DNA from: a virus
Length of the DNA: 52,743 bases
Reading direction: 5' to 3' (one strand)
IMG/VR virus record: IMGVR_UViG_3300031708_000013
Location: 1 to 52,743 of that record
A program made the position numbers and the translations under genes. Positions 1,613 to 49,555 of the stretch are shown piece after piece. Every line of letters begins with the position of its first letter. Position 1 is the first letter of the stretch. The notes under the pieces were generated by a model that made no database searches, was not told where the DNA came from, and saw only the letters and a program-made list of their open reading frames with translations.

Positions 1613-1900
1613 CTAATTGATTTTTTTCTTCTTGCATCTATCTTCTATAATTTTAGGTAAAACCGTTTGACATCTAAATTCAAAATAATCTCTGAAATAT
1701 TGAAAATAAAACGCCTCATCTTCATCAGAAATAGTTTCGTCGAACCCACCTGGTAAACCACTTAACATAAGAATACAAATATCGGCATATAATTCAATTA
1801 TATCATTAGGAATTACCTTGGCTTCTTCAAAACCAGGCACTAATTCCTCAAGAACTAAATTTCCCTTTAAAACTCTCTCTGGCCATTCCATTTTACTCAT
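1613..1900 (-). CDS. Hypothetical acidic protein, 95 aa
   Basis: MSKMEWPERVLKGNLVLEEL..., ending in a lysine-rich tail CKKKKIN. The start overlaps the recombinase stop (ATGA), so it is co-transcribed and coupled to it; this could make it an accessory factor, but nothing in the sequence shows a function. Confidence 0.6.
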   Translation of the reverse strand: MSKMEWPERVLKGNLVLEELVPGFEEAKVIPNDIIELYADICILMLSGLPGGFDETISDEDEAFYFQYFRDYFEFRCQTVLPKIIEDRCKKKKIN

Positions 1901-2484
1901 GCAAATATCGACCCTTCGTTAATGTTCTTAAAAAACGGATTTTTGGCCATACGAGTATATATTTCAGTTGAAGACATGTGTTTGTGACCAAGGTAATCCC
2001 TGATTGTCTCCATGGAAACACCCTTTTCACGTAAGAAGACCCCTTTTCCATGTCTAAACCCTCTCACATCAAACCATGTGTCAATATTTAGGTGCTGGTT
2101 AATGGATTGTATTAAAAAGTAATAGGCATATCTATTAAATGGTTTCCCTCTCTCAGTGGAAAAAACGGGATCATTTTTATCCTTTCCTTCTCCATAGAAT
2201 TCTAGCAAGAGTTCTTTTTCTATGGGAAGAAGGTCATGAATAAAATTTACTCCATTTTTCAAACGGTTAGCTTGAATAGTATTTCTGCTAAAATCAATAT
2301 CTCCCCATTTTAGATTGCATGCTTCACTTGATCTAAACCCATGGTTGTAGGTTAGCATCATCAGTAGCTTATTGCGTAAAGGGTAACGAGTCTTTTCCGC
2401 TGCCTTTAGAATAAGTTCTATTTCATCTTCATAGAGACATGGACGTAGTTTTTCTTTTGTTTTTTTTAATTTTTTGTATGCCAT
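1897..2484 (-). CDS. Short tyrosine recombinase, FimB/FimE-like
   Basis: 195 aa, essentially the catalytic domain only, the size of the FimB/FimE invertases rather than of a full phage integrase (~300-400 aa). Visible active-site residues: R51 (HGFRSSEA), K76 (RLKNG), R144 (RGFRHGKG), H167 (YLGHKHM) and the nucleophile Y176 (IYTRM). The first His of the usual HxxR box is Arg (R141). It could integrate the phage, resolve multimers of a circular genome, or invert a segment. No core-binding domain is present. Shares an ATGA junction with the next gene. Confidence 0.8.
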   Translation of the reverse strand: MAYKKLKKTKEKLRPCLYEDEIELILKAAEKTRYPLRNKLLMMLTYNHGFRSSEACNLKWGDIDFSRNTIQANRLKNGVNFIHDLLPIEKELLLEFYGEGKDKNDPVFSTERGKPFNRYAYYFLIQSINQHLNIDTWFDVRGFRHGKGVFLREKGVSMETIRDYLGHKHMSSTEIYTRMAKNPFFKNINEGSIFA

Positions 2485-3391: not shown

Positions 3392-3401
3392 TCCCTATCT
3401 T

Positions 3402-3662
3402 TCATTCATAATGTGTCCACATTCTTACAACCCTAACGATTTTTTCTTCCTTGAATATATTGTAAACCAACCTGTGTTGAATATTAATCCTTCTAGAGTA
3501 ATAATTCTCACTAGATGTTAGTTTTTCATATGGAGGTGGGTTTCTATAAGGATTGTCCTGTAACAAATTCAATAGATTAAAAACCTTCTTTCTATGGGGA
3601 GATTTATCTATCTTAATAGAATCTTTCTCCGCTTGAGATGAAAATATTATTTTCCAGGCCAA
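3402..3662 (-). CDS. yoeB: YoeB/Txe-family ribosome-dependent mRNA interferase toxin
   Basis: 86 aa, the usual size. The core YYSRRINIQHRLVYNI and the C-terminal MWTHYE match YoeB. The catalytic set E46, R64 and H84 corresponds to E46/R65/H83 of the E. coli toxin. It cleaves mRNA at the ribosomal A site unless bound by YefM. The only usable start is TTG at 3662, overlapping the antitoxin gene by 16 nt, which would keep toxin translation low and coupled. Confidence 0.85.
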   Translation of the reverse strand: MAWKIIFSSQAEKDSIKIDKSPHRKKVFNLLNLLQDNPYRNPPPYEKLTSSENYYSRRINIQHRLVYNIFKEEKIVRVVRMWTHYE

Positions 3663-3901
3663 AACGCAATACTCTCTACACAGTCTTCATGAGGTTCATT
3701 TCCTCCGGCAATAATAGATTCCATCATTCCAGGAATAGAAGCCAAATATAGTGTTTCCTGTATAGATCTCCAATCTTCATCAGACACAATCACTGCACTA
3801 TATTCTTTTCCCTTAATAAAGATAGGTTCGTGATTTTCAGAAACATTCTTAACGATGTTGTAAATGTCTGCTCTAGCGTTGCTTATATTAACTACGTGCA
3901 T
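3647..3901 (-). CDS. yefM: YefM-family antitoxin
   Basis: 84 aa. The N-terminal Phd/YefM DNA-binding fold (NISNARADIYNIVKNVSENH) is followed by VIVSDEDWRSIQETLYL, which is diagnostic, and an acidic toxin-binding tail. Precedes yoeB, as is usual, with AAGGAG upstream of the ATG. Expected to repress its own promoter with YoeB as co-repressor; a palindrome lies in the promoter spacer. Confidence 0.88.
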   Translation of the reverse strand: MHVVNISNARADIYNIVKNVSENHEPIFIKGKEYSAVIVSDEDWRSIQETLYLASIPGMMESIIAGGNEPHEDCVESIAFWPGK

Positions 3902-3982: not shown

Positions 3983-4348
3983 TCAATCCTCAATATTATC
4001 GAAATCTATTTTATTTAACTCTTCTAATAGAATGTCTCCTTTGGATTCTAACCATCCTGGAACGGAGCCACCGTGTTCCGTAATACCATATTTATCTAAC
4101 ATATAAAAAATGGTATATTTTAAGCCATCATCGTTATAAAAATATGAATCTAAAATAGCCATGTTCTCATCTGAGGCTTTAGAATATTCTTCATAAGATC
4201 CATAATCCTCCCTACGTATAGTAATATTCATATGATTAAGCAATTTTTTTAAGAACAAGAGACTATCCTGCGGTCTTCCACACCCACAATGCCCAAGCAG
4301 TTTAATTTGGATATAATCTAAAGGATCGTCATATTCTTCCTTTTGCAT
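3983..4348 (-). CDS. Hypothetical protein with HCGCGRP motif, 121 aa
   Basis: MQKEEYDDPLDYIQIKLLGH, then CGCGRPQDSLLFLKKLL. The His/Cys cluster near residues 20-25 could bind metal but is a single cluster. Mostly acidic helical. No family identified. Four nt from the next upstream gene. Confidence 0.55.
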   Translation of the reverse strand: MQKEEYDDPLDYIQIKLLGHCGCGRPQDSLLFLKKLLNHMNITIRREDYGSYEEYSKASDENMAILDSYFYNDDGLKYTIFYMLDKYGITEHGGSVPGWLESKGDILLEELNKIDFDNIED

Positions 4349-30149: not shown

Positions 30150-31838
30150 CTATGTTCGTATTTTAAGGGGATTAGACGGGCTTTGAAGTGCATTGAGGGT
30201 AATCTCGTTTTCTTCAATCAATACGGCCTCAGTGGTCAGGAATAGCCCAGCAATCGACGCGGCATCTTCCAATGCCGTGATAACAACCTTGGTAGGGTCA
30301 ATAATACCCCAATCAATCATATCTACGATATAGCCCTTTTGAGCATCATAACCGATACTGAATTCACTCCCTTCAAGATCTTTCTCGCAGATATCTTGTA
30401 TTTTTTCATAAAGTAACCCCGAATTTAACAATATTTGTACAAATGGTCGGACTAAAGATCTCAATAAAATACACTCTCCTTCTATTAAATTAAGACCAGG
30501 CAATTTTATTCCACCCATCCCATTATCCTTAATATTCTTTTTATACTGTGTATCAATATCAAAATCCATCCTAGCTCTATAAAGAGCAATACCGCCCCCA
30601 GGTAAGATTCCATCTTGTAAAGCGGCTCTAGTCGCATGGACGGCATCCTCAACACGATCTTTACGCTCTTTCATCTCGAACTCTGTGGTTCCCCCTATTT
30701 TAATAATGGCAATCCCATTAGTGAGACGTGCATAGCGTTCTTCATATCTCTTCTTCAACTCTTCATGTTCAGCCTTGGCAATCTCATCTTTCAGGTAAGA
30801 ACACCTATTATCGAAATCCGCCTTTTCTCCCTGACCGTCTATTATCGTCGTCTTGTCTTGAGAGATGATGACCTTTTTAGCTCTTCCTAATGTGCCTCGC
30901 GCAACATTCTGAAGCTTAATTCCACCGTCTTCTCCTATAATCTTGGTTCCTGTAACAACGGCAATGTCATCTAATATTTCTTTACGAAACTCGCCGAAGG
31001 AAGGGGATTTAACTGCACACACTTTAAGCCCACGTTTAATTTTATTAAGAATAAGGGTTTGAAGGGATTCTGACTCTACATCTTCGGCTATTATAAGGAG
31101 AGATTCATTTTCTCTCATGGTAGCTTCTACCAGAGAAAGAATCATGGCCATACCAGCAATCTTGTTGTCATAAATAAGGATATAAGGGTTTTCTAGCTCA
31201 CAGATCATTTTGTTAGGATTGGTTACAAAATAGGGGGATATATATCCTCTATCGAGTTCTAGACCTTCAACGTATCTTACTTCTGTCTTTCCATTGGGGG
31301 AATCTTCAAGAGAGATGACGCCTTCTTTGCCTATCTTCTGGAATGTTTCAGAAATAAGTTTTCCAATTTCAGCATCTCCATTGGCAGAAATAGTAGCTAT
31401 TTGTTCAATTTCAATTGGATTAGAGATGACCCTAGATTTTGATTTTAGGTATTCTATAGCATAACTGGTTCCCCTATCTATTCCTCTTTTAAGGTCAATA
31501 GGGTTTTCCCCGTCATCAATGGCTTTCATTCCCTCATTAATGATATGTTGGGCTAAGACGGTTGCGGTGGTTGTCCCATCACCTGCAATATCACAAGTCT
31601 TCATGGCAACTTGCCGGATAAGTTCAGCCCCTACGCTTTCAAACTCATCATAAAGCTCTACTTCCTTCGCAACGGAAACACCGTCCTTTGTAATGCGGAT
31701 TGGGTAATGCGTATTCTTAATGATAACATTTCTGCCTTTTGGCCCTAACGTTACTTTAACGGCGTCAGCTATTTTATTGACACCAATAAGAATCTTTTCC
31801 CGTCCTTCTTTTCCAAAGGCCAGATGTTTAGGAAGCAT
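30150..31838 (-). CDS. groEL: Phage-encoded GroEL (Hsp60) chaperonin
   Basis: 562 aa, all three GroEL domains. Key residues fall on E. coli numbering: D52 (KDGVSVAKE), D87 in GDGTTTATVLA and D398 in VEDAVHATRAA for ATP binding/hydrolysis; Y199, Y203 and F204 in RGYISPYF and L234, V237, L259 and I263 for substrate and co-chaperonin binding. Differences: an insertion after ~421 (equatorial domain) and no GGM-repeat tail, ending NPLKIRT. Good GAGG site. Lies in the assembly operon with scaffold and a GroES-like gene; the likely client is the capsid protein. Confidence 0.93.
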   Translation of the reverse strand: MLPKHLAFGKEGREKILIGVNKIADAVKVTLGPKGRNVIIKNTHYPIRITKDGVSVAKEVELYDEFESVGAELIRQVAMKTCDIAGDGTTTATVLAQHIINEGMKAIDDGENPIDLKRGIDRGTSYAIEYLKSKSRVISNPIEIEQIATISANGDAEIGKLISETFQKIGKEGVISLEDSPNGKTEVRYVEGLELDRGYISPYFVTNPNKMICELENPYILIYDNKIAGMAMILSLVEATMRENESLLIIAEDVESESLQTLILNKIKRGLKVCAVKSPSFGEFRKEILDDIAVVTGTKIIGEDGGIKLQNVARGTLGRAKKVIISQDKTTIIDGQGEKADFDNRCSYLKDEIAKAEHEELKKRYEERYARLTNGIAIIKIGGTTEFEMKERKDRVEDAVHATRAALQDGILPGGGIALYRARMDFDIDTQYKKNIKDNGMGGIKLPGLNLIEGECILLRSLVRPFVQILLNSGLLYEKIQDICEKDLEGSEFSIGYDAQKGYIVDMIDWGIIDPTKVVITALEDAASIAGLFLTTEAVLIEENEITLNALQSPSNPLKIRT

Positions 31839-45110: not shown

Positions 45111-45389
45111 TTAAATTTCTCCTGCATCTACATAATCTGCAATATCAAGAAGTTTTCGTTTAAATGATTCAAGAGCCCCAACCATTGGAAAACATTTAAT
45201 TTTATCGGTATTTATTGAGTATTGAGTAAGAATAAGATCATCTTCAATCCAAGCCAGGGCAACAAAGCCCTGGCACTTTTTTTCTTTACAAGATTTTAAA
45301 AATGTTTCTATTCCATCAATAGATCCTTTGTGATATTTTTTCTTTTTAAAGCGTTGCTTCTTAAAAGGTATCACATTGATTTCATTCAT
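45111..45389 (-). CDS. Hypothetical basic protein, 92 aa
   Basis: MNEINVIPFKKQRFKKKKYH, then GFVALAWIEDDLILTQYSIN. The hydrophobic strand pattern and basic start suggest a small alpha/beta protein. The start overlaps the upstream stop (ATGA). Confidence 0.5.
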   Translation of the reverse strand: MNEINVIPFKKQRFKKKKYHKGSIDGIETFLKSCKEKKCQGFVALAWIEDDLILTQYSINTDKIKCFPMVGALESFKRKLLDIADYVDAGEI

Positions 45390-46204
45390 TTAATAATGAT
45401 ACATCCCGCAGGCAAATATCCACCATTATTTCCACATTCAGGAGTTTCAGGGTCATCATGCTTATAGGTAAGCTCTTTCCGGTAAAAATCCTTCTTTAAC
45501 AGTTCTGGCTCTTTTGAGATCTTTAAAGTAAGGCCATAGGTTATTTTAATGGTGGTGTGATAAACATCTACGGCAGAATAGACATGTCGAGCGTGACGCG
45601 TCTTTCTCTGCCACTGTGACGTGATAACCCATTCTTTGAAACAAACGGCTACATCGGAAGCTCCAACTCTTTCTTCTCTCATTTCCAAATCAAAGAGAGC
45701 TTCACCCTTTTCTCTGAATATTGAGCCATCTTCACGTTTGTATTCCTTGATTAAATAGGTGGTGACCCTTCCCCCAAGAGTTAGAACCCCTGAGTTTTCC
45801 TCTAATTCTCTCATATAGACATAAGGGTATTCTTGTTCTTTCAGAAAGACCTTGTCGAGTTTACGATGTCCACAGATTACTGAAGTGTTGATTTGGCACT
45901 GCGAGGATTTGTGGTGATCGTCGTGTAGCCATGTCTTAGTGAAAAAAGGCTGTATAGACAGGGTCTTGGTCTTTTCATTGGTTGTTGCGTCTACAATGGC
46001 CATTATGATCGTGTCGTGAGGCACCAGCTCGCGGATGGATACAATTGTATGTTGATCCTTAAAGAATTCGTCTTCAATGACTCCTATGCCTTCAGCCCCT
46101 TTAGCATTTGGGGAAAGAAGGGCAAATAACATGCCAAAAATGAAGGTTATGAGAATTGTTGAAAGGACAAGGGGAAGGATAAGATGTTTTGATTTGTTTT
46201 CCAT
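45386..46204 (-). CDS. Exported or membrane-anchored hypothetical protein, 272 aa
   Basis: N-terminal hydrophobic signal (LILPLVLSTILITFIFGMLF) with possible cleavage near NAKGAEG, then a polar beta-rich domain with six Cys/His-containing spots (QINTSVICGHRK, ETPECGNNGGYLPAGCIIIK). Disulfides are possible in the periplasm. No enzyme motif was recognised; it could be a moron product. Confidence 0.5.
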   Translation of the reverse strand: MENKSKHLILPLVLSTILITFIFGMLFALLSPNAKGAEGIGVIEDEFFKDQHTIVSIRELVPHDTIIMAIVDATTNEKTKTLSIQPFFTKTWLHDDHHKSSQCQINTSVICGHRKLDKVFLKEQEYPYVYMRELEENSGVLTLGGRVTTYLIKEYKREDGSIFREKGEALFDLEMREERVGASDVAVCFKEWVITSQWQRKTRHARHVYSAVDVYHTTIKITYGLTLKISKEPELLKKDFYRKELTYKHDDPETPECGNNGGYLPAGCIIIK

Positions 46205-47356: not shown

Positions 47357-48118
47357 TCATGCGGCCATACGAGATGGTTGGAGACTATCCAGGTATCTTG
47401 TGGCAGCTATAAACGATGGTTCGCCCTCCTTTCCAGCTAGAACGGTTTTCAAAGCATCAAGAATCAGATCGTTAGGTTCTGAAGGTAGATCGATTGTGTC
47501 GCATGGCTTTTCAACAATGGGGATGGTATGCTCTTGGGCTACCCCTCTTTCCACAAAGTTATCCACAATTTTAGAAATATTCTCTCTAACTTCATGTCGA
47601 TAAGGTCGGCGTAAGGTGTTTGGTTTCCGATATATCGGTTTCTTGGGAGGGTAATCTCTAGGCGAGTTATCCACAGATTTTGAAATCCCAACTGTATTAA
47701 TACAAGGTAATGGGTAGGTAATGGGTAGGTTGGGTGCAGATTTTTCACCCCTGGGGTGCAGATTTTTCACCTCTAGGGATGCAGATTTTTCACCCCCCAA
47801 ATGGTTTTCAGATAGGTTATCCACACATTGTTGTTGTTCAAGGATTGCCTCAAGAAGCTCTATATTTATTCTATAGTGAGCAGGTGATCGAGGAGTATCA
47901 GCTTGGGTACAAATCATGTAGTTACCCGCCAACGTCTCATTACGCATGTTAATTATGGTGCGTACTGAAAGATCAAATTTTTCTGCTAATGTGGCATTGG
48001 AAACCCGAATGCCCGTTCCATCTGAGTTAGCGTATTTCAGCATATAAAAAAGAAATGTCTTTTGGGTATTGTTGAGAGATTTGTTGTCTACGATCAGGTT
48101 CATGAGTTTAAAGCACAT
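47357..48118 (-). CDS. Replication initiator-like protein (lambda O type layout), 253 aa
   Basis: The N-terminus is a winged helix-turn-helix (LNNTQKTFLFYMLKYANSDG, then VSNATLAEKFDLSVRTIINM) as in phage replication O / DnaD-like proteins. The middle and C-terminus are low-complexity. Within the middle, DNA-level repeats and three DnaA boxes are embedded (see origin feature), the same arrangement as lambda O with its internal ori. VDN recurs three times because TGTGGATAA boxes are read in the same frame. Confidence 0.65.
   Translation of the reverse strand: MCFKLMNLIVDNKSLNNTQKTFLFYMLKYANSDGTGIRVSNATLAEKFDLSVRTIINMRNETLAGNYMICTQADTPRSPAHYRINIELLEAILEQQQCVDNLSENHLGGEKSASLEVKNLHPRGEKSAPNLPITYPLPCINTVGISKSVDNSPRDYPPKKPIYRKPNTLRRPYRHEVRENISKIVDNFVERGVAQEHTIPIVEKPCDTIDLPSEPNDLILDALKTVLAGKEGEPSFIAATRYLDSLQPSRMAA
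47559..47825. other. Candidate replication origin: DnaA boxes and iterons inside the initiator gene
   Basis: Perfect TTATCCACA boxes at 47559-47567, 47667-47675 and 47817-47825, all in one orientation. Between boxes two and three, TGCAGATTTTTCACC is repeated at 47735-47749, 47757-47771 and 47780-47794 (22- and 23-bp spacing). Next to these, TAATGGGTAGG is repeated twice (47708-47729). The middle iteron is read in another codon frame (VKNLH) than the outer two (GEKSA), so selection acts on DNA. Confidence 0.75.
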
Positions 48119-48157
48119 TGATTTTCCTAAAATTAAAAAAAGTTTAAATTATATGGA

Positions 48158-48270
48158 AAAAGTACTTGAAAAATATCTTCGGCTAAGATATAACCCTATA
48201 TATAGTTAGAGGGTGATTTGTTTTTGTTTCAAGCTTTGTTTCAAGCACTTTTCTGTTTCAAGCACTTTTC
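48158..48270. repeat. TTTCAAGCACTTTT repeats, possible operator sites
   Basis: Two perfect 16-bp copies (48238-48253, 48255-48270), one partial (48226-48234) and one inverted near-copy AAAAGTACTTGAAA (48158-48171), which overlaps the -35 box of the small-RNA promoter. Could also be repressor-binding sites in the early control region. Confidence 0.5.
48166..48194 (+). promoter_or_regulatory. Predicted promoter of the small antisense RNA
   Basis: TTGAAA (48166-48171), a 17-bp spacer and TATAAC (48189-48194, 5 of 6 consensus). The predicted start near 48201. No protein gene follows before the terminator at ~48283-48313. Confidence 0.6.
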
Positions 48271-48313
48271 ACCATTTCGATTAAAAGCGCCTTTTACCGG
48301 GCGCTTTTTTTTG
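48201..48313 (+). ncRNA. Putative ~110-nt small RNA antisense to the initiator leader
   Basis: Bounded by the promoter at 48166-48194 and a strong intrinsic terminator. Contains GTTTCAAGC at 48226, 48238 and 48255; the last two extend to GTTTCAAGCACTTTTC (48238-48253, 48255-48270). The leftward transcript predicted from 48398-48375 towards the initiator (ATG 48118) would include its full complement. This is the geometry of plasmid copy-control countertranscript RNAs. Prediction only. Confidence 0.5.
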
Positions 48314-48327
48314 CCTGATGATTTCAT
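48241..48327 (-). CDS. Possible basic leader peptide, 28 aa
   Basis: MKSSGKKKRPVKGAFNRNGE, then KCLKQKSA. A full AGGAGG site (48342-48347) lies 14 nt upstream, farther than ideal. It lies in the initiator leader, overlapping the small RNA antisense, comparable in place to the leader peptides of antisense-controlled plasmid rep genes. Translation unproven. Confidence 0.3.
   Translation of the reverse strand: MKSSGKKKRPVKGAFNRNGEKCLKQKSA
48283..48313 (+). terminator. Rho-independent terminator of the small RNA
   Basis: AAGCGCC-TTTTACCG-GGCGCTT followed by eight T residues. Near-perfect GC-rich stem on the plus strand; the minus strand has only a weak T-run. Confidence 0.85.
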
Positions 48328-48374
48328 TTATCTGAAGGAAGCCTCCTAAAAATTAAATTTTTATCTAGTAGCAG

Positions 48375-48403
48375 ATAATAGGGGGGCTGTCCAAAATATT
48401 CAA
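48375..48403 (-). promoter_or_regulatory. Predicted leftward promoter for the initiator gene
   Basis: Minus strand TTGAAT (48398-48403), a 17-bp C-rich spacer and TATTAT (48375-48380). The predicted start near 48368 gives a ~250-nt leader to the ATG at 48118. Confidence 0.55.
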
Positions 48404-48447: not shown

Positions 48448-48475
48448 CTTGAAAGTTAAGCATTCGGACTTTCAA
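48448..48475. repeat. 8-bp inverted repeat in the early intergenic region
   Basis: TTGAAAGT and ACTTTCAA flank 11 nt. Possible operator or hairpin. The span 48404-48556 otherwise shows only a weak 31-codon frame (ATG near 48434) without a ribosome site. Confidence 0.35.
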
Positions 48476-48556
48476 TCATGTGGTAATGATAGTGGTTTTG
48501 TTGTTTCCTTGGGGTGTGTTTATTGCTGAACACGTCACCTAAATAACAAACAAAGA

Positions 48557-48587
48557 CCCTGGGGCCCTTACGCTCCGGGGTTTTTTG
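48557..48587 (+). terminator. Second rightward intrinsic terminator before the early operon
   Basis: CCCTGGGGC-CCTTAC-GCTCCGGGG (9 pairs with two G-U) followed by TTTTTT. Insulates the early operon at 48712 from rightward transcription started near 48200 or ends another unrecognised short RNA. Confidence 0.8.
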
Positions 48588-48638
48588 TTAATATTCTCTT
48601 AATCTTTAAGAAATATTGTTAATTGTCATTTTTATTGT

Positions 48639-48667
48639 TGACTGTCATAAAAAGATATGTTTTACTG
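48639..48667 (+). promoter_or_regulatory. Weak predicted promoter for the rightward early genes
   Basis: TTGACT, a 17-bp spacer and TTTACT, just after the terminator and ~45 nt before the ATG at 48712. TGTCAT occurs twice nearby. The -10 is only 4 of 6, so an activator may be needed. Confidence 0.4.
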
Positions 48668-48711: not shown

Positions 48712-48957
48712 ATGGCAGAATACGATTTTAACCATGATAAAGCATACTGTGTTGAACAGTGCTTGTTTAAAACATCTCAAGGTCAAGTTCCAGCACCTAG
48801 AATTATCCTAAAGCCTTCATCGTTTATAGAGAGCCTTATAAATGGCCTAAGCTTTGAATGTGTGCAGATCAAGACCGAAAAATTTCATTTCACATTCTTT
48901 AAGACTGAGCAAGAAGCATCCGATTATCTGGATGCCCTAAGCCTACCTTTGCAATAA
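48712..48957 (+). CDS. Hypothetical early protein, 81 aa
   Basis: MAEYDFNHDKAYCVEQCLFK..., a small alpha/beta chain ending SDYLDALSLPLQ. AAGGAG lies 6 nt before the ATG. First gene of the rightward early operon. Unrecognised. Confidence 0.6.
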   Translation: MAEYDFNHDKAYCVEQCLFKTSQGQVPAPRIILKPSSFIESLINGLSFECVQIKTEKFHFTFFKTEQEASDYLDALSLPLQ

Positions 48958-49024: not shown

Positions 49025-49555
49025 ATGACAGCAAAACTAAACACGATAGAGAACACTTGGGAATCAATTAAAAAAGGTAACTTTGTTAATGATTATGCTA
49101 GCGAACAACGCACAGCTCTACAGAAGGCCATAGACAGGAATGCGGACACTATAAGGGTAGAACGCAAGAAAGAGGTCGAAGACGGCGACCTACGCATGTT
49201 TGACGGCAAGGGATGGGTTCAGTTCTGTATCCATAAGGCACGAAAGCTTATCAATGAAGATCGGATATTTGTGGCTACTCAGGAAAGAATGTCTGGATTG
49301 TGGATCAATCACAGCAATGAACACGTCAGGATTTTAAATGAAAGCCTTGATGGTAACAAAAATATAAATGATTTGAGGGATGTTTATCATGAGCATCTGA
49401 CAAACAATGGTAAGGGAATTGATTTTGAAGAGATAAAGAATCACGTTATCCATGGATACGAAAGTCCCAGCCAATGGGAAAAGAAGATGCATGAACAAGA
49501 TGAAATATTACACAAAGAAGAAGATTTGGTACAACGTACGGGGTATTTTATATGA
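49025..49555 (+). CDS. Hypothetical early protein, 176 aa
   Basis: MTAKLNTIENTWESIKKGNF..., charged and helical, with DLRMFDGKGWVQFCIHKARK. ATGA overlap with the RecA-like ATPase gene suggests a shared recombination or replication task. No motif known to me. Confidence 0.55.
   Translation: MTAKLNTIENTWESIKKGNFVNDYASEQRTALQKAIDRNADTIRVERKKEVEDGDLRMFDGKGWVQFCIHKARKLINEDRIFVATQERMSGLWINHSNEHVRILNESLDGNKNINDLRDVYHEHLTNNGKGIDFEEIKNHVIHGYESPSQWEKKMHEQDEILHKEEDLVQRTGYFI

Follow-up and report, generated by a model that had tools for sequence, protein, structure and literature searches.

A predicted antisense RNA opposite the initiator leader probably limits replication in a phage by closing the ribosome site

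Introduction

The replication of phages is usually viewed as being controlled at the level of transcription, by repressors and antitermination. In pIP501, a countertranscript on the initiator leader changes the folding of that leader and attenuates transcription. In pT181, the countertranscript on the initiator leader likewise alters leader folding and attenuates transcription (PMC5703833). Among the closest described systems is that of pSK41, in which RNAI, a countertranscript of about 83 nt with two stem-loops, has its complement in the rep leader, about 100 nt upstream of the start. RNAI has been proposed to refold the rep leader on binding and to occlude the ribosome site, and the origin lies inside rep (PMC5703833). 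In pPR9, a plasmid related to pSK41, the same control region is combined with an initiator whose HTH_36 domain is of the phage type (PMC5703833).

In phage lambda, the promoter pO lies at the start of O and makes the short oop RNA; the origin is inside O, and oop has been reported to be without effect on the O-P mRNA (PMC3985674). The target of lambda OOP is cII, to which it is antisense, rather than O (PMC3985674). For the lytic replicon of P1, which has its origin in repL, control by an antisense RNA was reported by Heinrich et al (1995, NAR 23:1468), as far as the citation in PMC9948254 conveys it. In the present study, we analysed a stretch of 52,743 nucleotides that is an IMG/VR virus record (the window). 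An earlier note on this DNA had proposed an antisense RNA across the leader of the replication initiator, and we compared the locus with the systems above and with its counterparts in two related phages, L004 and L008.

Results

Two facing promoters lie upstream of the initiator gene of the window (47357-48118, - strand). The rightward promoter, TTGAAA-17-TATAAC (48166-48194, + strand), was read directly from the sequence; its -35 box TTGAAA (48166-48171) starts 48 bp from the initiator ATG and is followed by a 17-bp spacer and the -10 box TATAAC (48189-48194), with agreement at 10 of 12 consensus positions. The promoter scanner passed over it only since a T was required at the final -10 position. 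From the position of this promoter, transcription is expected to start at about 48201, and it would end at an intrinsic terminator recovered by the terminator scan (48283-48312, + strand), in which AAAAGCGCCTTTTACCGGGCGCTTTT at 48283-48308 gives a 10-bp stem with 5 GC pairs and 8 T stand at 48305-48312. The predicted antisense RNA (RNA1; 48201-48312, + strand) is about 112 nt long and is predicted to fold into two stem-loops in all three phages, the second being the terminator and the 5' one being weak in the window. The facing leftward promoter for the initiator transcript, TTGAAT-17-TATTAT (48375-48403, - strand), was found by the scan and agrees with the consensus at 9 of 12 positions, with TTGAAT at 48403-48398, 17 bp, and TATTAT at 48380-48375. 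Its predicted start at about 48368 gives a putative untranslated initiator leader of 250 nt (48119-48368, - strand), ahead of the ATG at 48118, which folds better than its shuffles (z -3.3). The promoters and the terminator claimed earlier are therefore present when the sequence is read directly, and the gene-free stretch of about 110 nt and the leader of about 250 nt proposed with them agree with the lengths found here.

No gene lies between the RNA1 promoter and its terminator. The sole ORF of at least 8 codons in this segment is a 23-codon GTG ORF, found in the window only and with no counterpart in L004 or L008, and a coding role of RNA1 was ruled out as no ORF is conserved across the three phages. 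A leader peptide (28 codons from 48327; 16 codons in L008, ending within the leader segment arm2' described below) was also dropped, as L004 has just a 4-codon ORF there. A second strong rightward terminator (48552-48590, + strand), common to the window, L004 and L008, may be the end of a second short RNA. This terminator precedes the p81 gene promoter in all three phages (window 48449-48590, + strand; L004 3986-4082; L008 5292-5411), and candidate promoters upstream of it would give a second short non-coding RNA of about 60-110 nt. In L004, a 12-bp perfect inverted repeat (ACTATTGATACA at 4038-4049 and TGTATCAATAGT at 4157-4168) flanks the second terminator and the p81 promoter, and in a similar place the window shows TATTGTTRAYTGTCAT twice in direct orientation, at 48614 and 48633 (48614-48648); both are possible operators.

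The initiator is a lambda-O-like protein of 253 aa with weak matches to phrog_678 (E 1.8e-6) among the lambda-O-like PHROGs and to HTH_36 (PF13730, E 1.3e-4, below Pfam's cut-off). RepA_N (PF06970) was not returned for it, Pfam and PHROGs giving HTH_36 and O-like families only. Inside the gene there are three 22-bp iterons (GGGTGCAGATTTTTCACC; 47732-47798), and around them three DnaA-box-like GTTATCCACA sites at 47558, 47666 and 47816 (47558-47829). Because the iterons and the DnaA-box-like sites are there, the origin is probably inside the initiator gene, as in lambda. Between 48119 and 48711 no cII-like ORF was found.

No close GenBank relatives of the window were found, and the initiator protein used as bait gave no relative among viral contigs or GenBank phages. 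Relatives were located by searching with two proteins encoded nearby, AAA/Sak4-like and p176. The AAA, p272 and p176 proteins were searched against viral contigs, and AAA and p272 also against genomes; among the matches to these baits, L004 and L008 alone keep the locus. None of the remaining 50-odd AAA relatives gave an initiator, p81 or p176 match in its searched DNA, and p176 had no match when searched against plasmids. A search with the exact terminator pattern was rejected as a source of relatives, its two hits being chance matches in unrelated phages. L004 (54.7 kb; AAA 79-81% identical, initiator 27%) and L008 (53.0 kb; AAA 67-68% identical, initiator 25%) have the gene order of the window, and intergenic DNA is mostly diverged between the three. 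The evidence from conservation covers these three phages only.

The distance from the rightward -35 to the ATG of the first gene of the leftward operon is 48 bp in the window, 50 bp in L004 and 49 bp in L008, where TTGAAA-17-TATAAC of the window is replaced by TTGTAA-17-TATAAC (L004) and TTGACT-17-TATAAA (L008). In both relatives a rightward terminator follows 70-120 bp beyond the promoter (L004 3832-3857, L008 5169-5192), and a facing leftward promoter lies 82-90 bp to the right of the RNA1 terminator, namely TTGCGT-17-CATTAT in L004 and TTGTAA-17-CATAGT in L008, both weak but with their position kept. L004 has in addition an extra 105-aa ORF between the leader and the initiator (3393-3710, - strand), which is absent from the window and L008.

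Taken on its own, the window has promoter matches that are no better than chance. Over 4 kb, 10 promoter-like sites were observed versus 12.9 in shuffles, which is no excess, and a site as good as the rightward promoter turns up somewhere in 26% of shuffled intergenic regions; terminator-like sites are in excess (10 observed versus 3.1). Within ±3 bp of the observed distance from the ATG, a rightward promoter of at least equal score was seen in 0.3% (window), 2.6% (L004) and 0.07% (L008) of shuffles. For the leftward promoter at the same position (±5) the values were 0.7%, 10% and 3%, respectively, which are individually weak, and on the sequence this promoter is weaker evidence than the rightward one. 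The arrangement is more than chance because it is kept in the two relatives.

The window also has an inverted repeat, arm1 (48158-48171) versus arm2 inside RNA1, just ahead of the terminator. On the leader strand these are arm1' (TTTCAAGTACTTTT; 48158-48171, - strand), which overlies the -35 of the RNA1 promoter, and arm2' (AAAAGTGCTTGAAA; 48256-48269, - strand), which is within the stretch complementary to RNA1. L008 has an inverted repeat of different sequence in the same place (5059-5072/5150-5163, 13/14), and that of L004 is bulged (3745-3763/3799-3812). Ungapped 14-nt repeats this good occurred in 4 of 150 shuffles for the window and in none of 150 for L008; the L004 repeat is not picked up by this ungapped test. 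A long-range stem between arm1' and arm2' is predicted in all three leaders, with 9.4 of 14 expected pairs in the window and 11.9 and 12.4 in the relatives, and in each phage shuffles of the stem region are less stable than the real one (z -4.2, -3.3 and -3.9). From the terminator to the ATG of the window, z was -3.6 on the leader strand and -1.1 on the other one, so that the leader strand is favoured. The repeats of L004 and L008 show no such preference: the + strand folds equally well, which leaves some room for a DNA operator. As the -35 and an A-tract put some constraint on the sequence of arm1, true covariation can be counted to a small extent only; an alignment of the leaders of all three phages with MAFFT put arm2' in the wrong place and was left out of pair counting. 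This leader structure would be meaningful only in a transcribed leader. A covariance-model search of all 4227 Rfam families at the gathering score gave no match. In the window phage only, a perfect 17-bp tandem duplication (48237-48270) contains arm2 (TGTTTCAAGCACTTTTC) and provides a second arm2' copy (48239-48252, - strand), giving two alternative partners for arm1' in the leader; it is absent from L004 and L008.

Arm1' ends in UUUUUCC, an overlapping anti-Shine-Dalgarno segment (48155-48161, - strand) complementary to the initiator Shine-Dalgarno region AGGAAAA (48122-48128, - strand), both read from the sequence. Binding of RNA1 was modelled by barring the leader stretch complementary to RNA1 from pairing, as it would be in a duplex. 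In the window, the predicted cost of opening the Shine-Dalgarno region rose from 3.0 kcal/mol in the free leader to 6.8 kcal/mol with RNA1 bound, a change reached in 3 of 250 shuffles; in L008 it rose from 1.4 to 9.1 kcal/mol (0 of 250 shuffled leaders as large). In L004, whose leader precedes the extra 105-aa ORF, the change from 5.2 to 6.0 kcal/mol was not significant (34 of 250 shuffles). When the RNA1-covered part and the 5' end were shuffled and the rest was left intact, 13/400 (window), 0/400 (L008) and 182/400 (L004) of the resulting leaders had a site no less open than the real one. Moving the predicted leader start by 40 nt in either direction left the effect in the window unchanged, and a start 120 nt further right halved it. 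The folding model predicts a ribosome-site switch in two of the three phages, the window and L008, and leaves it unsupported in L004; like the arrangement, its conservation and the leader stem, this is a result of computation.

Discussion

The best explanation, which we consider reasonably probable, is that a countertranscript blocks initiator translation by freeing an anti-Shine-Dalgarno segment. In such a mechanism, RNA1, of about 112 nt and running rightward from 48201 to 48312, would be the countertranscript to the 250-nt leader of an initiator mRNA that starts at about 48368 and is made leftward. As long as the leader is free, arm2' of the RNA1-complementary stretch would hold arm1', immediately before the ribosome site, in a stem that leaves the site open; with RNA1 bound, arm2' would be occupied and arm1' freed, UUUUUCC would pair with AGGAAAA, and initiator translation would stop. 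Convergent transcription could contribute to the repression. If every genome copy makes RNA1, initiator synthesis per genome would drop with rising copies. We infer that these RNAs exist, pair in the cell and affect replication, so that an antisense RNA opposite the initiator leader probably limits replication by shutting the ribosome site. Such a brake is known chiefly from plasmids. The proposal of an antisense RNA across the initiator leader thus gains support from the arrangement kept in three phages and from the leader structure, the transcript itself being a prediction; the likeness to plasmid countertranscript control drawn in the earlier note also gains support, in the narrower form of a pSK41-like occlusion of the ribosome site (PMC5703833) that is predicted in the window and L008.

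Like pSK41, a staphylococcal RepA_N plasmid, this locus places opposite the initiator leader a short untranslated RNA that has a promoter and a terminator of its own, predicted and conserved in three phages; like RNAI, RNA1 has two predicted stem-loops, and the probable origin is in the initiator gene. Unlike pSK41, it belongs to a phage and not to a plasmid, its initiator is O-like/HTH_36 and not RepA_N, and its switch is predicted to work via a long-range leader stem; the likeness of the leader switch was drawn from the published description. As with lambda OOP, the promoter is just upstream of an O-like gene and transcribes away from it, with a terminator within about 120 nt. Unlike OOP, RNA1 is not antisense to the 3' end of cII, no cII-like gene lying between, and it covers the initiator's own leader. 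The P1 replicon, so far as the citing source describes it, is alike in having an antisense RNA for a phage replicon with its origin in the initiator gene, and unlike in its initiator.

It seems unlikely that the rightward promoter acts only by convergence, damping leftward transcription into the in-gene origin and making the RNA as a by-product. The lambda promoter pO, at the start of O and pointing away, does lower transcription from pR towards the origin, with an oop RNA that leaves the O-P mRNA unaffected (PMC3985674). Here too, the promoter is just upstream of an O-like gene with internal iterons; however, convergence leaves unexplained the leader stem in all three phages and the switch predicted in the window and L008. 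Transcriptional attenuation, in which RNA1 binding would decide a leader terminator before the initiator as in pT181 and pIP501, is quite unlikely. Arm1' has a U-run in all three phages (UUUUUCC; U7 in L004) after the long-range stem, which gives terminator-like ends, but a scan of the three leaders found no leftward intrinsic terminator, a difference from pT181 and pIP501, and binding of RNA1 would abolish the arm2'-arm1' pairing and lead to read-through, not termination.

That the inverted repeats are operators of a DNA-binding protein, a repressor or the initiator, on the rightward promoter, with no antisense regulation, we regard as decidedly improbable. Arm1 overlaps the -35 and the arm2 repeats are downstream; in two phages the + strand gives the inverted repeat an equal score, and the window has tandem copies. 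Against this, the window has no further copy of the motif at 0-1 mismatch, and this restriction to one locus ruled out genome-wide operators. The repeats also differ among the phages and from the iterons, and operators would not predict occlusion of the ribosome site. Pure chance, with spurious promoters and terminators that merely end other transcripts, is hardly credible: promoter matches in a single genome are at chance level, but the positions are conserved across three diverged phages.

If an RNA1 countertranscript does block initiator translation, a lambda-O-type initiator would be under an antisense brake that senses dosage. This would link the control of replication in phages with that in plasmids and open replicative incompatibility between such phages to testing, and the locus would offer a compact RNA switch suited to reporter assays. 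More tentatively, and as a possibility rather than an expectation, this lineage of three GroEL-carrying phages of about 53 kb may use a plasmid-style RNA switch on a lambda-O-type initiator, its countertranscript freeing an anti-Shine-Dalgarno element from a long-range leader stem, for a dosage-dependent restraint of replication, possibly in a plasmid-like prophage. That RNA1 sets the copy number of a plasmid-like prophage is no more than a possibility: ParA was not found in the window, L004 or L008, and a tyrosine recombinase is present in all three. By analogy with the antisense RNA reported in P1, RNA1 could just as well restrain lytic replication. From the P1 work as cited, antisense control of a phage replicon is of an already known kind; our literature search found no description of its combination with a lambda-O-type initiator in this lineage, nor of this particular leader switch.

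The p81 (48712-48957, + strand), p176 (49025-49555, + strand) and p272 (45386-46204, - strand) proteins are conserved in the lineage and have no Pfam or PHROGs match. The tyrosine recombinase of the window (1897-2484, - strand) is short, its 195 aa reaching barely beyond the catalytic domain, and may be an integrase or a dimer resolvase. Furthermore, the window has a complete GroEL-like chaperonin gene (30150-31838, - strand), which is found in all three phages with 72-76% identity.
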